Source of the DNA: Candidatus Kapaibacterium sp.
GTDB taxonomy: Bacteria; Bacteroidota; Ignavibacteria; Kapaibacteriales; UBA2268
Direction of reading: 5' to 3'
DNA length: 35,943 bases
Assembly (NCBI GenBank): GCA_026390675.1
Contig: JAPLFM010000198.1
Coordinates: forward strand, 2,903 to 38,845
Positions 20,983 through 26,554 of the stretch are shown piece by piece. The translations under genes were made by a program, and so were the position numbers. The notes under the pieces are model-generated. The model did not search any database. It was not told the origin of the DNA and worked only from the letters and a program-made list of their open reading frames with translations. Numbering within the stretch: the stretch's first letter is position 1; the number at the start of each line of letters is the position of its first letter.

Positions 20983-21291
20983 ATGTCATATCTAAATATT
21001 AGAGAAGAAGAGCTTAAAAACAAAGTCGCACACGATTTTTTTTGGTTATATGATTGCACCAAAATAATTGGTAATGTAGATTTTTGTGTTTGCATGCAAG
21101 AAAGTGACAAACAATTATTTGACCATCATTCACTAATGTGGGCTGAAGCTAAAGCTGGTAAATCTAATATTTATAATTCGTTAGTACAATTAATCCTAAC
21201 TATTGGCAAGGCTCGTACATTTGATAAATTTCTACCTCCTCCATTTCTAGGTGCTTTGGATGCTGAAAAAAATTGCTTTCATCCCTTATAG
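20983..21291 (+). CDS. Type IIG restriction-modification enzyme, N-terminal nuclease fragment (frameshifted)
   Basis: 102 aa. SLMWAEAKAGKSNIYNSLVQ carries an E-x-K pair (EAK) after an Asp (FDHHS), matching the PD-(D/E)xK nuclease core at the N-terminus of fused Type IIG enzymes; TIGKARTFDKFLPPPFLGALDAEK is also typical of that region. After GAAAAAAATT the frame goes out of register (NCFHPL, stop), while the next frame continues the homology (KIAFIPYSEIHEIFYQNDF). The run has seven As; six would join both parts. The start ATG lies 31 nt after a TATCTTTG box. As it stands the fragment contains the nuclease motif without methylase. Confidence 0.82.
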   Translation: MSYLNIREEELKNKVAHDFFWLYDCTKIIGNVDFCVCMQESDKQLFDHHSLMWAEAKAGKSNIYNSLVQLILTIGKARTFDKFLPPPFLGALDAEKNCFHPL

Positions 21292-24124
21292 TGAAATTCA
21301 TGAAATATTTTACCAAAATGATTTCAATTGGAATGTGACTCCATCTAATTATGATACAAAAGAATTTAAACAAATACATGACATAATAAAATCAGTAATT
21401 GATAAAAATGCTTTGCTTTTCAATTTTGATAATGATAAAAATGAATTAATTAAGTTCATAAGAGTAAATTTTAAAGAAAGCAGTAGAGGCTTAACAAAAA
21501 CAAGAATTGATAAAAACAACTTTATGATTGTTTATAACAAATGGATTTCAGAAGTTAAAAATTCAATAAATATAAATTGGGATATTGCTAAAAAGTCAGG
21601 TATTATAGATGGTGATTTTTATCTTGCTGATTTACTTTCGCAAGAAAATTTTACTTTGAAAGATAAATTATATGTGCTTTTAAAAAATGATCATTATGAA
21701 TTAGAAAAAATTCTTGATAGTGCTGGTATGTTTAGTCATAAAACTGCAACATTTACAGATAATCAAAAAGCACATAATCAATTTTGGAATAGATATGAAA
21801 GACCACCAAAAGAAGAATATTGGGAATACATAGTAAGTCGTAGAGATTTGCTTGTTCCACAAGATGTAAGAGAAAGAAAAGGAAGCTTTTATACTCCACA
21901 AATTTGGGTAGAGCTTTCGCAAAAGTATTTGGCTGATACCCTTGGAGAGAATTGGCAAGACGAGTATTATATTTGGGACTGTGCCGCTGGTACTGGTAAT
22001 CTTTTAAACGGGCTTACAAATAAATATTATATTTGGGCTTCAACTCTTGACAAACAAGATGTGGAAGTAATGAAAGACCGTATAAAAAATGGTGCTAATT
22101 TACTTGAAGACCACGTTTTCCAATTTGACTTTTTGAATGATGATTTTACGAAATTACCACAAGAACTTAAAAAGATAATTAATGACACAAAAAAAAGAAA
22201 AAAACTTGTTATGTACATAAATCCACCTTATGCTGAGGCTACTACTGCTAAAACAGTATCGGGTACAGGTGAGAATAAATCTGGAGTTTCTACTTTAAAT
22301 AAAGCTAATGTATTTTTCAAAGATAAAATTGGTAATGCTTCAAATGAAATTTTTGCATTATTTATGGCTCAAATTTATTATAAAATCCCCGATTGCACTT
22401 TAGCTCAATTCTCTAAAATGAAATTTATTCAAGGTACTAATTTTATAAAATTTAAAGATTTTTTTAAAGCAGGGTATAAAAATGGTTTTGTTGTTCCTGC
22501 TGAAACGTTTGATAATGTTAAAGGAAGTTTTCCAATTGGATTTACAATTTGGGATTTAGACAAAAAAGAAAAAATCGATGAAATTCCTTGCGATGTTTAT
22601 AATAACAATGTGAATCAAATTAGAATTAAAACTTTTTATGGTGAATTACCTCAAAGTATAAATAAATGGCTTACTAACTTTTACATATCTAACTCAAAAA
22701 ACTATACTGCTATGTTAAGTAGTAGAGGAAATGATTTTCAAAATCAAAAATTTATTTATTTAGCAGCAAATATTAAAAATAACACGCACGATACAAAAGT
22801 AAATATAAACGAAATCAATTCAATTCCAATTTCAATTTATTTTTCAGTACGCCATTGTATAGATGCCACTTGGCTAAATGACAGAGATCAATTTTTATAT
22901 CCAAATTATGGCTGGGAAAGTGATTTAGAGTTTCAAAATAATTGTTTAGCTTTTACTTTATTTCATGGTCAAAATAGAATATCAAGCAAAGAAGGCACAA
23001 ACCACTGGATACCATTTACTGAAAGCGAAGTAGATGCAAAAGAAAAGTTTGAAAGCAACTTTATGACTAACTTCATAAAAGGCAAAATAAAAAGAGATGC
23101 CACCACCGAACTCAATCTCTTCGATTCAATTGAAACAAAAAATTCCCCTCTTTGGAGGGGTGGATTGCTTCAGCAAGACGGGGTGGTTCTTAACTCAAAT
23201 ACAGGCGAAATCTTGAAAGACGGAGTGCTTCTTAATCAATCTAATGTACCACCCCACCTTTCAGGCACCCCTCCACAGGAGGGGAATTTAGGAAAAGATA
23301 CATTTAATTCTCCTCCAATGGAGGAGTGGCAGACTATGTCTGACGAGGTGGTTCTTAATTCTCCTTCACTTGATGGGAATTTGAAGAAGCGAAACACTGT
23401 AAATTTTATAAGTCTGCCATATAACCCAAAACTTAAGGAAAGAGCAAAAGAACTAAGAAAAGCTGGTAATCTTGCTGAGGTTTTATTTTGGAATGAAGTT
23501 AAAAATGGAAAATTTAAAGGATTAGATTTTGATAGGCAAAAAATTATTGGAAATTATATTGTTGATTTTTATTGTTCTAATACAAATACTGTTGTGGAAA
23601 TAGATGGCAGTAGTCATGATGACAAACAAGAATATGATGCAGAGAGAGACGCATTTTTAATAGGTTTAGGATTGGAAGTAATACATATTTCAGATATAGA
23701 TGTTAAAACAAATTTATCTTCTGTATTTAAAATGCTAGATGAGCATCCAGCTTTTCAGGAAAATTCAATAGAAGAACCACCCCGTCTTTTGCAAGCAAAA
23801 TCCACCCCTCCACAGGATGGGAATGGTTTGGTATTTTCTCCAGAAGCAAAAGCAGTTTTTGATGCTGGTAGAGAACTTTGGAAATATTACCATTCACAAA
23901 TAAAAATACCAAAATTTTCAAATGAAGTAAACAATGCTTCTGTAAATGCTTCATTATATGACATAAGAGAGTATTTCCAAGGTAGAAATGCCAAAGGCAC
24001 AATGAACAGCAAAAGTGATGACGAAGAATATATGAAACTCATCAAAAACTTAAGAGACAAACTAAAAATCTTAGCCAAGAAAATCGAACCAAAAGTATAT
24101 GAATACGGCTTTTTGAAGGAGTGA
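21251..24124 (+). CDS. Type IIG restriction-modification enzyme, methyltransferase part with embedded DUF559 endonuclease
   Basis: 957 aa in the frame one base off from 20983-21291. It encodes an N6-adenine DNA methyltransferase: FYTPQIWVELSQKYL, SAM motif I WDCAAGTGN (from residue 242), catalytic NPPY at 324-327, then a specificity-type region (about 330-620). About residues 631-858 are foreign to this family: peptide copies of GC-rich repeats (NSPLWRGGLLQQDGVVLN; NSPPMEEW...DEVVLN) surround a DUF559/Vsr-like nuclease domain (about 718-835: LRKAGNLAEVLFWNEV, FDRQKIIGNYIVDFYC, VVEIDGSSH). Host homology resumes at FSPEAKAVFDAGRELWKYYH. The true start is upstream at 20983; the first residues here (MLWMLK) come from the shifted frame. 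Confidence 0.85.
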   Translation: MLWMLKKIAFIPYSEIHEIFYQNDFNWNVTPSNYDTKEFKQIHDIIKSVIDKNALLFNFDNDKNELIKFIRVNFKESSRGLTKTRIDKNNFMIVYNKWISEVKNSININWDIAKKSGIIDGDFYLADLLSQENFTLKDKLYVLLKNDHYELEKILDSAGMFSHKTATFTDNQKAHNQFWNRYERPPKEEYWEYIVSRRDLLVPQDVRERKGSFYTPQIWVELSQKYLADTLGENWQDEYYIWDCAAGTGNLLNGLTNKYYIWASTLDKQDVEVMKDRIKNGANLLEDHVFQFDFLNDDFTKLPQELKKIINDTKKRKKLVMYINPPYAEATTAKTVSGTGENKSGVSTLNKANVFFKDKIGNASNEIFALFMAQIYYKIPDCTLAQFSKMKFIQGTNFIKFKDFFKAGYKNGFVVPAETFDNVKGSFPIGFTIWDLDKKEKIDEIPCDVYNNNVNQIRIKTFYGELPQSINKWLTNFYISNSKNYTAMLSSRGNDFQNQKFIYLAANIKNNTHDTKVNINEINSIPISIYFSVRHCIDATWLNDRDQFLYPNYGWESDLEFQNNCLAFTLFHGQNRISSKEGTNHWIPFTESEVDAKEKFESNFMTNFIKGKIKRDATTELNLFDSIETKNSPLWRGGLLQQDGVVLNSNTGEILKDGVLLNQSNVPPHLSGTPPQEGNLGKDTFNSPPMEEWQTMSDEVVLNSPSLDGNLKKRNTVNFISLPYNPKLKERAKELRKAGNLAEVLFWNEVKNGKFKGLDFDRQKIIGNYIVDFYCSNTNTVVEIDGSSHDDKQEYDAERDAFLIGLGLEVIHISDIDVKTNLSSVFKMLDEHPAFQENSIEEPPRLLQAKSTPPQDGNGLVFSPEAKAVFDAGRELWKYYHSQIKIPKFSNEVNNASVNASLYDIREYFQGRNAKGTMNSKSDDEEYMKLIKNLRDKLKILAKKIEPKVYEYGFLKE
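21265..21274 (+). repeat. A7 homopolymer at the Type IIG frameshift
   Basis: The run G-AAAAAAA-TT. With seven As the nuclease frame ends 17 nt later; with six, Glu-Lys-Ile-Ala continues into the methyltransferase frame. The tract is the only repeat at the junction and is of the kind that varies by slippage, and is also a typical site of sequencing error. Confidence 0.85.
23141..23193 (+). repeat. GC-rich palindromic unit A (left cassette end)
   Basis: Two nested hairpins: CCCCTC-TTT-GGAGGGG and TTGC-TTCA-GCAA, then GACGGGGTGGTTCTTAA. Translated NSPLWRGGLLQQDGVVLN. Confidence 0.85.
23248..23288 (-). repeat. GC-rich palindromic unit B (inverted copy)
   Basis: Minus-strand reading: AATTCCCCTCC-TGT-GGAGGGG then GTGGGGTGGT. 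Same family as unit A in opposite orientation; translated on the plus strand as PPHLSGTPPQEGN. Confidence 0.8.
23306..23358 (+). repeat. GC-rich palindromic unit C
   Basis: AATTCTCCTCC-AAT-GGAGGAGTGG, CAGA-CTATG-TCTG, then ACGAGGTGGTTCTTAA. Direct orientation; followed at 23357-23382 by a shorter hairpin (AATTCTCC ... GGGAATT). An in-frame ATG at 23336 inside this unit could start a free-standing DUF559 product. Confidence 0.8.
23773..23823 (-). repeat. GC-rich palindromic unit E (right cassette end)
   Basis: Minus-strand reading: ATTCCCATCCTGTGGAGGGG, then TTTTGC-TTGC-style stem AAAA and GACGGGGTGGTTCTT. It is the inverted counterpart of unit A and closes the cassette. Confidence 0.8.
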
Positions 24125-24868: not shown

Positions 24869-26554
24869 ATGCTATTAGAAACAGGAAATAAAGATGTCCA
24901 ATTTAAAACTAGACCAGTAGAATCAGTTGAAACTGGAATTGGTTTTAGAGAACCTGACGAACTTATTTTAGATGGTCAACAAAGAATTACTTCATTGTAT
25001 CAAACAATTGTATCTAATAAAGTTGTAAAAACCAAAAATGAAAAAGGCCAAGATATTTTTAGATGGTATTATATTGACATTTTAAAAGCCATTGATCCAA
25101 ATGCTGATATAGAAGACTCTATAATTTCTATTAATGAACAAAAACAAATAACTAAAGATTTTGGTAGAGAAATAGTATTAGACTTGTCAAAACCAGAATT
25201 CGAATATCAAAATTTGATGTATCCTGTTTGTATGGTTGATGAGTATGATGATTGGAGAGAGAAATATGAAGAATATTGGGATTATAACAGAGAAAAAATT
25301 GTTTTATTTAAAAAATTTAAAACAGAAATTATTTCAAATTTCAATAATTACTATCTACCAGTAATTACTCTTAAAAAAGAAAATTCTCGAGAAGCTGTTT
25401 GTCAAGTATTTGAAAAAGTAAATACTGGTGGAGTGTCTTTAAATGTATTTGAATTGTTAACAGCCATATATGCGATTGACTCTTTCGATTTAAGAAAAAG
25501 CTGGGAAAAAGTAAAAGAAAAATTTAGCAAACTTAGAGTTTTGAAATATAGCGAAAATACAGATTTTCTTCAAGCTATAACTTTACTTTCAACTTATAAC
25601 AAAAGAATTAATCTTGAAAAGGATAATATTTCAGAAGATAGGCTGCCAGCTGTTTCAGCCAAAAAGAAAGATATACTAAAGCTTACTTTGCAAGAGTATA
25701 AAAATTATTATCAACATGTTGAAGAAGGTTTTATTAAAGCAGCAAAGCTTTTAATAGAAAACTATATTTTCAAAGCTGATGACTTGCCTTATGTATCACA
25801 ATTAGTTCCTTTAAGTGTAATACTTGCAACAATTGGAAACGATATTGAAAACATAACTGTAAAAAACAAAATAATGCAATGGTATTGGTGTGGTGTTTTA
25901 GGTGAACTTTATGGTGGTGCAAATGAAACTAGATATGCTCTAGATTTAACACAAGTAATATCTTGGATAAGAAACGAAAGTGATGAAACAAACGTTAAAA
26001 CTATTTACGAATCTAGTTTTAATCCATCAAGACTAAATACTCTAAGAACTAGAAATAGTGCCGCATATAAAGGTATTTATAATCTAATTATTAATTCAGG
26101 TGCAAAAGACTTTTTAAGTGGAACAAGAATTGATTTATCTGTTTATTTTACTGAAGCTATTGATATTCATCATATATTTCCAAGGAATTGGTGTGAAAAA
26201 CAAAATATACCTTCAAAAGACTACGATTGCATAATAAACAAAACCCCACTTTCTTCAAGAACAAACAAAATAATTGGAGGAATAGCTCCTTCAAAATATT
26301 TAGAAAATATCGAGAAAAGATTAGATTCAAATAGGACTGGTATAGAAGAACTTATTTCTTCACATAAAATAAATGTAGATAAAATTTATTCTGATGACTT
26401 TTATGGCTTTTTTGAAGAAAGAAAAAAGGAACTTGTAAAGTTAATTAGTGATGCAATGTGTAAGAAAATAGATATGAATATTAATATTATAGAACCTGAA
26501 TCAAGCGAAAATAATGAAATTGATACTCAAGAATATTACGAAGATCAAATTTAA
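24869..26554 (+). CDS. GmrSD-like DUF262/DUF1524 protein, N-terminally truncated
   Basis: 561 aa from ATG 24869; homology starts earlier (GLLSSIAKSFPIGAVMLLETG, open from 24800). The DUF262 half has the ParB/sulfiredoxin-like motif LILDGQQRITSLYQ (Asp35-Arg39) and VFEKVNTGGVSLNVFELL. The C-terminal DUF1524 half carries the His-Me finger nuclease motif DIHHIFPRN (His434, His435) with the later NKTPLSSRTNK. Such proteins are modification-dependent, NTP-using restriction enzymes (GmrSD/BrxU type). The usual first motif, of the form I/L-P-x-F/Y-Q-R-x-x-x-W, is missing: upstream the frame is closed, and an adjacent frame (24771-24821, DVEYLKGL) looks like a decayed remnant. Probably inactive, or started from a non-standard codon. 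Confidence 0.8.
   Translation: MLLETGNKDVQFKTRPVESVETGIGFREPDELILDGQQRITSLYQTIVSNKVVKTKNEKGQDIFRWYYIDILKAIDPNADIEDSIISINEQKQITKDFGREIVLDLSKPEFEYQNLMYPVCMVDEYDDWREKYEEYWDYNREKIVLFKKFKTEIISNFNNYYLPVITLKKENSREAVCQVFEKVNTGGVSLNVFELLTAIYAIDSFDLRKSWEKVKEKFSKLRVLKYSENTDFLQAITLLSTYNKRINLEKDNISEDRLPAVSAKKKDILKLTLQEYKNYYQHVEEGFIKAAKLLIENYIFKADDLPYVSQLVPLSVILATIGNDIENITVKNKIMQWYWCGVLGELYGGANETRYALDLTQVISWIRNESDETNVKTIYESSFNPSRLNTLRTRNSAAYKGIYNLIINSGAKDFLSGTRIDLSVYFTEAIDIHHIFPRNWCEKQNIPSKDYDCIINKTPLSSRTNKIIGGIAPSKYLENIEKRLDSNRTGIEELISSHKINVDKIYSDDFYGFFEERKKELVKLISDAMCKKIDMNINIIEPESSENNEIDTQEYYEDQI

Follow-up and report, generated by a model that had tools for sequence, protein, structure and literature searches.

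Several described systems bring together palindromic DNA, small genes and nucleases. In a REPtron, a single small gene for an HUH tyrosine transposase (RAYT/Y1) lies between inverted palindromes (REPs), solo copies of which are dispersed in the genome. Homing endonuclease genes, such as that of the EDxHD enzyme I-Bth0305I, show sporadic gain, decay and loss, and inteins place a nuclease in frame within essential enzymes. Rickettsia palindromic elements (RPEs), which are short and carry no gene, are palindromic repeats found in frame in protein genes.

The new analysis concerns a 35,943-nucleotide stretch of DNA from Candidatus Kapaibacterium sp., hereafter the window. An earlier note on this DNA had claimed that inverted GC-rich units bound an in-frame DUF559 domain within a DNA methyltransferase gene, and both the Pfam match and the location of the units agree with it. 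The insert is probably one copy of a small mobile element made up of a single DUF559 nuclease gene with an inverted palindromic unit on either side.

An in-frame nuclease cassette in a methyltransferase gene

The host gene is a 957-aa open reading frame (ORF) that contains no stop across the whole methyltransferase and DUF559 stretch. The N6-DNA methyltransferase motifs GSFYTP, CAAGTGNLL and NPPY can be read directly in its translation, and its sole Pfam match is DUF559 (PF04480; residues 727-827, E 1.2e-26, 93.1 bits vs a curated cut-off of 20.6). Six whole or partial copies of the unit surround the nuclease domain; the outermost two, A and F, are complete and inverted, and B, C, D and E lie between them, in line with the extra internal copies noted earlier. 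The cassette ends at about 23826, three bases beyond the 23823 first given.

21251..24124, + strand: host gene, the N6-DNA methyltransferase of a Type IIG-like restriction enzyme, split in frame by the cassette (motifs, Pfam, homologues of 801-853 aa without the insert)
23141..23826, + strand: whole cassette, inverted palindromic units around the DUF559 domain with the host frame open (homologues without the insert, unit location)
23141..23193, + strand: outer left unit A, AATTCCCCTCtttGGAGGGGTGG-ATTGCttcAGCAA-GACGGGGTGGTTCTTAA (unit location)
23216..23235, + strand: half unit B, tail only, GACGGAGTGCTTCTTAA (unit location)
23246..23289, - strand: unit C, inverted (unit location)
23306..23358, + strand: unit D, CTCCTccaatGGAGGAG ... 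CAGACtatGTCTG ... GACGAGGTGGTTC (unit location)
23367..23382, - strand: half unit E, inverted, hairpin arm only (unit location)
23429..23731, + strand: DUF559 nuclease domain of the Vsr / I-Bth0305I fold, with all family-invariant residues present (Pfam, sequence, predicted fold)
23771..23826, - strand: outer right unit F, inverted, partner of unit A (unit location)

A run of seven A at 21266-21272 marks the point at which an ORF with an EAK nuclease-like motif (20983-21291) stops and the methyltransferase ORF starts in another frame. Because the homologues are 801-853 aa long, this arrangement suggests a single host ORF that a one-base slip or an assembly error has interrupted at that run. 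Downstream of the host gene lies a GmrSD-type (type IV restriction) gene at 24869-26554, and the cassette therefore probably sits in a defence island.

Comparison with related host genes defines the insert. Specifically, a relative of the host gene is present in 20 of 123 genomes of the window genome's order, and the alignment with insert-free Type IIG homologues (801-853 aa) that the earlier note had proposed fixes the borders of the insert between ...LFDSIETK and LVFSPEAK... The DUF559 domain is not a conserved part of the host enzyme's orthologues: in at least ten relatives in which both anchors were found, the linker reads straight through and the insert is absent. Among the relatives, only G000 (957 aa) and G016 (1142 aa) carry the insert, with a shared linker and differing unit variants. 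The one homologue found to share the DUF559 position (G016) likewise has flanking units, and is not the unit-free counterexample that the note had named as refuting. A target duplication was sought in the window and in the leucyl-tRNA synthetase (LeuRS) gene discussed below, and no clear one was found.

The nuclease itself carries all the family-invariant residues (R26, E33, W37, Q53, D62, E73, G76 and H79). The AF2 model of its domain has a pLDDT of 89, and the predicted fold matches PDB entries 3hrl and 3r3p and, more weakly, Vsr (1cw0). The relation to the homing endonuclease I-Bth0305I (3r3p) is seen both in sequence (E 1.9e-5) and in fold (probability 1.0), and sequence and predicted fold also point to NGO0050 (3hrl). 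Profile, invariant residues and predicted fold thereby agree on the Vsr-like nuclease fold that had been proposed. Values of dN/dS among related DUF559 nucleases range from 0.04 to 0.26, and the nuclease is under strong purifying selection. That family members act on DNA in vivo follows from Caulobacter, where the DUF559 protein VsrA is responsible for a DNA-damage response in a methyltransferase mutant (PMC12907096).

The units have a more elaborate architecture than first described. Each comprises hairpin 1 (CCCCTC-loop-GAGGGG), TGG, a hairpin 2 of free sequence and GACGGGGTGGTTC facing inward; hairpin 1 had been recognized correctly, but the description of a single hairpin missed the second, palindromic one. 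The sequence of hairpin 2 varies freely while its palindromy is kept by covariation, with a mean stem of 5.06 bp in 31 units vs 2.39 bp when the arms are re-dealt (maximum 3.16 in 500 rounds). The tail motif GACGGGGTGGTTCTTAA, allowing up to three mismatches, has four matches in the window, all within the cassette, and none in 100 shuffles. Genome-wide, seven of its eight matches lie at two DUF559 loci, and a reversed control pattern of equal looseness has nine matches; a stricter two-part unit pattern yields 20 matches in the whole genome vs none for its control. Chance was considered as an explanation and is excluded by shuffles and offset controls. The units end in GACGGGGTGG or GGGGTGAGGG; REPs are tagged GTAG or CGTC at the hairpin foot. 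Several solo units of the window genome (L083, L085, L092, L094, L099) adjoin CGTC/dRS3-like palindromes (TGTCATTCC...GGAATCCAG), a class of repeats reported without a known transposase (PMC3733652).

The suggestion that the element tolerates coding sites because it is translatable is not supported, with 0.67 of the six frames open in units vs 0.63 in random DNA of the same loci. On these figures, landing in frame is better explained by selection among insertions.

Paired units across phyla

The search for other unit-flanked DUF559 loci, likewise proposed in the earlier note, finds many of them, both among relatives and in other phyla. The window genome has five DUF559 genes, all of which were inspected; four have inverted units nearby, of three different kinds, and among the relatives nearly every close DUF559 gene has them as well. 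In a named set of 80 genomes (Chloroflexota, Pseudomonadota, Nitrospirota, Cyanobacteriota, Patescibacteria, Verrucomicrobiota and others), which the narrow scan alignment biases towards KFRRQHP-type nucleases, 64 of 78 testable loci score above their own shuffles and 54 of 78 reach a score of 36. Such pairs occur at none of 276 control placements 1.3-2.2 kb away. Pooled over many phyla, an inverted unit pair lies close to 101 of 156 DUF559 loci, and about a third of the 156 are without a strong pair. Distant DUF559-like domains, found as ORFs of 270-280 aa or as weak matches in large ORFs, showed no inverted units and probably represent another branch. The commonest unit in the named genomes reads CCCYCTCCC-loop-GGGAGRGGG-NN-GGGGTGAGGG, with the tail inward. 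In some pairs of cassettes from different sites, homology runs exactly from unit to unit and ends at the outer units (L060/L066, L024/L047).

In Neisseria gonorrhoeae (L274), the DUF559 protein matches structure 3hrl (NGO0050), and GC-rich units of its own type lie beside the gene. Spread by phages was considered and set aside, only three phage records having a match. Legionella segments with a transposase and DUF559 have been described as recombination hotspots (PMC12308824).

In E. coli, the unit TCCCCTCGCCCCTCTGGGGAGAGGGTTAGGGTGAGGGG is present in 1-7 copies per genome. Among 30 evenly sampled strains, 12 carry it between pstB and pstA, and in 17 it is absent from otherwise matching DNA. 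The difference spans 92 bp with an 8-bp direct repeat, AACCGTGT, on both sides; either insertion with duplication or recombinational loss between the repeats would fit. The DUF559 gene of E. coli, ycjD, has no strong inverted pair, with units downstream only. It was rejected as a clean empty site, as ycjD-less strains have an efflux operon there and thus differ by a whole operon; clean, near-identical empty sites were found for a solo unit and none for a whole cassette. At the intergenic ypfG-tkt site, some strains carry a DUF559-type unit and others have another GC-rich repeat instead (L322, L332 vs L331, L333).

These distributions bear on an alternative that we regard as unlikely, although it is the strongest of the rivals, in which the units are independent REP-like repeats and DUF559 is a homing endonuclease that uses them as landing or repair sites, as targets and not as ends. 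It would fit the fact that solo units are common in genomes and remain in E. coli strains without ycjD. However, the two arms of a pair resemble each other (median 0.71) more than they resemble the arms of other loci (0.23), unit polarity is mostly fixed with the tail inward, and landing in one unit would give two halves, not two complete inverted units. Moreover, genomes without DUF559 have essentially no excess units (median 0 in 127 genomes vs 8 in 124 with strong DUF559; MWU p 3e-20), a comparison drawn from 297 genomes of the phylum and partly confounded by ancestry and base composition.

The nuclease and its units also vary together. Unit similarity tracks nuclease similarity with a Mantel rho of 0.45 (permutation maximum 0.16), partly confounded by ancestry and base composition, and within Bacteroidota alone rho is 0.26 vs a permutation maximum of 0.14, with shared ancestry still included. 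More doubtful again is the idea that DUF559 is a passenger and that another enzyme, a Y1/RAYT transposase or one not yet known, moves the units. RAYTs are thought to move REPs, and the terminal inverted repeats of RAYT relatives share GGGGWSAS (PMC3733652), a motif with which the common tail GGGGTGAG agrees. Yet in 60 genomes in which Y1 and DUF559 loci were compared, inverted palindromes flank 11 of 15 Y1 loci, the positive control of the method, and these are of their own type: none is unit-like, as opposed to 31 of 37 DUF559 pairs. The strong purifying selection on DUF559 likewise argues against a passenger, and movement of the units by RAYTs is unsupported in this order, whose Y1 loci have different palindromes. 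The Y1 genes of the order (L339, L341, L344, L346, L349 and others) have their own bounding palindromes and form a separate REPtron-like set.

Residence within essential proteins

DUF559 domains are found in frame within a wide range of proteins. Specifically, Pfam places them inside LeuRS, MetRS (three), ValRS, another class I synthetase, MetH, PriA and MnmE, as well as Mur ligase (two), riboflavin synthase (RibE), PurL and a class III aminotransferase. The restriction-type hosts are HsdM, HsdR, HsdS, MmeI, Eco57I-like and type ISP enzymes. In one DUF559-bearing HsdR ORF (L122, G310), a GIY-YIG nuclease domain also sits in frame at residues 251-317, so other nuclease families may form similar cassettes. 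On the nuclease tree, built from few alignment columns and with many forks open, stand-alone and fused forms must have interchanged at least 26 times.

Restriction-modification proteins make up about half of the fused hosts, the window's included, which is what would be expected if DUF559 had been recruited as the restriction nuclease domain of methyltransferases and the fusion were a working restriction enzyme. This explanation is very improbable in view of the aminoacyl-tRNA synthetases, MetH, PriA, MnmE, Mur ligase, RibE and further proteins among the other hosts, and of the absence of the domain from most homologues of the window host. In addition, flanking units are equally frequent at fused (31/49) and stand-alone (68/107) copies.

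The LeuRS genes of family f32 record the history of one such site. The insert is absent from most LeuRS genes in the 151 genomes of this family, and 26 genes that were read comprise 12 intact inserts, three decayed ones and empty sites. The decayed inserts have lost their catalytic residues and units and have kept the frame. The host tree requires at least seven changes of insertion state among the 26 genomes, and some sister pairs differ, so the insert has been gained or lost repeatedly at this one site. LeuRS is essential, and the sole LeuRS of three near-complete genomes (G109, G156, G086) has the insert; the fused enzyme therefore presumably works. Other in-frame repeats occupy the same loop in L297 and L300 (G405, G465) and L289 (G470) (GTCATTGCGAGCGAAGC...AAGCAATC, IASEAKQS; ISAPLNHQNS), which marks it as permissive for repeats.

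That DUF559 proteins are Vsr-like mismatch-repair enzymes beside which the palindromes are incidental is scarcely credible: Vsr is among the next fold matches and Caulobacter VsrA has been interpreted in this way (PMC12907096), but such repeats are missing from all the control placements, and insertion in linkers of unrelated proteins is unexpected for a repair gene.

A candidate mobile element among known systems

The data are best accommodated by a nuclease gene that travels with its own palindromic ends. The nuclease would cut or nick DNA at a unit or target, and during repair of the break the whole unit-gene-unit cassette, or a single unit, would be copied in. Solo units would represent the non-autonomous form of the element, as REPs do for RAYT transposases. 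Copies that land in frame in a protein loop or linker would survive, since an additional folded nuclease domain leaves the host protein functional, and would later decay in place. The paired ends and empty homologues agree with the earlier proposal that the units are the ends of a homing-like, spreading nuclease element; we infer the transposition itself, including the role of the DUF559 nuclease in moving the units, its site of cutting, the copying of the element by repair, and the link between cutting and copying.

On balance, we lean slightly towards a broader reading, in which a previously unrecognized class of mobile elements in bacteria, spread over many phyla and represented in E. coli by YcjD, consists of a Vsr-like nuclease with palindromic ends that spreads itself and its ends and routinely resides inside essential proteins as a tolerated, unspliced extra domain. 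The open-licence papers on DUF559 contain nothing on palindromes or cassette mobility, and an earlier description elsewhere is possible. If correct, this reading would give a function to a large 'unknown' family, with ycjD of E. coli K-12 and Neisseria NGO0050 among its members. It would also account for a frequent type of GC-rich palindromic repeat and indicate that bacteria tolerate nuclease domains parked unspliced inside essential enzymes. Laboratory E. coli has both a DUF559 gene and polymorphic units, and the idea is thus directly testable there.

On present evidence, the odds that this strong form holds are about even. Set against known systems, the cassette does not show a defining feature of each: the Y1 enzyme of REPtrons, the intron or intein of homing genes, and the gene-free state of RPEs. 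The claim that it is neither an intein nor an insertion sequence (IS) is upheld, with Pfam finding only DUF559 and the Y1 loci of the compared genomes having different palindromes. Like inteins, the cassettes place a nuclease in frame in essential enzymes, but no splicing domain is recognised in them (no fused ORF scanned matches Hint), and the insert should stay in the protein. No DDE or serine transposase lies between the inverted repeats of the window (ORFs, Pfam), and Pfam finds no Y1/HUH transposase in the window ORF. With EDxHD homing endonuclease genes (I-Bth0305I), the cassette shares a related catalytic domain, by sequence and predicted fold, and, at a single site in LeuRS, the sporadic pattern of gain, decay and loss; unlike them, it has palindromic ends and no intron or intein and occupies many unrelated sites. 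RPEs resemble it as in-frame palindromic repeats in protein genes, whereas the DUF559 unit pair encloses a nuclease gene. With REPtrons, it has in common a single small gene framed by inverted palindromes, scattered solo copies and gene-specific ends. In contrast, its enzyme is a PD-(D/E)XK/Vsr-like nuclease and not an HUH tyrosine transposase, the palindromes of the two do not overlap in shared genomes, and DUF559 cassettes often lie in frame in essential genes.
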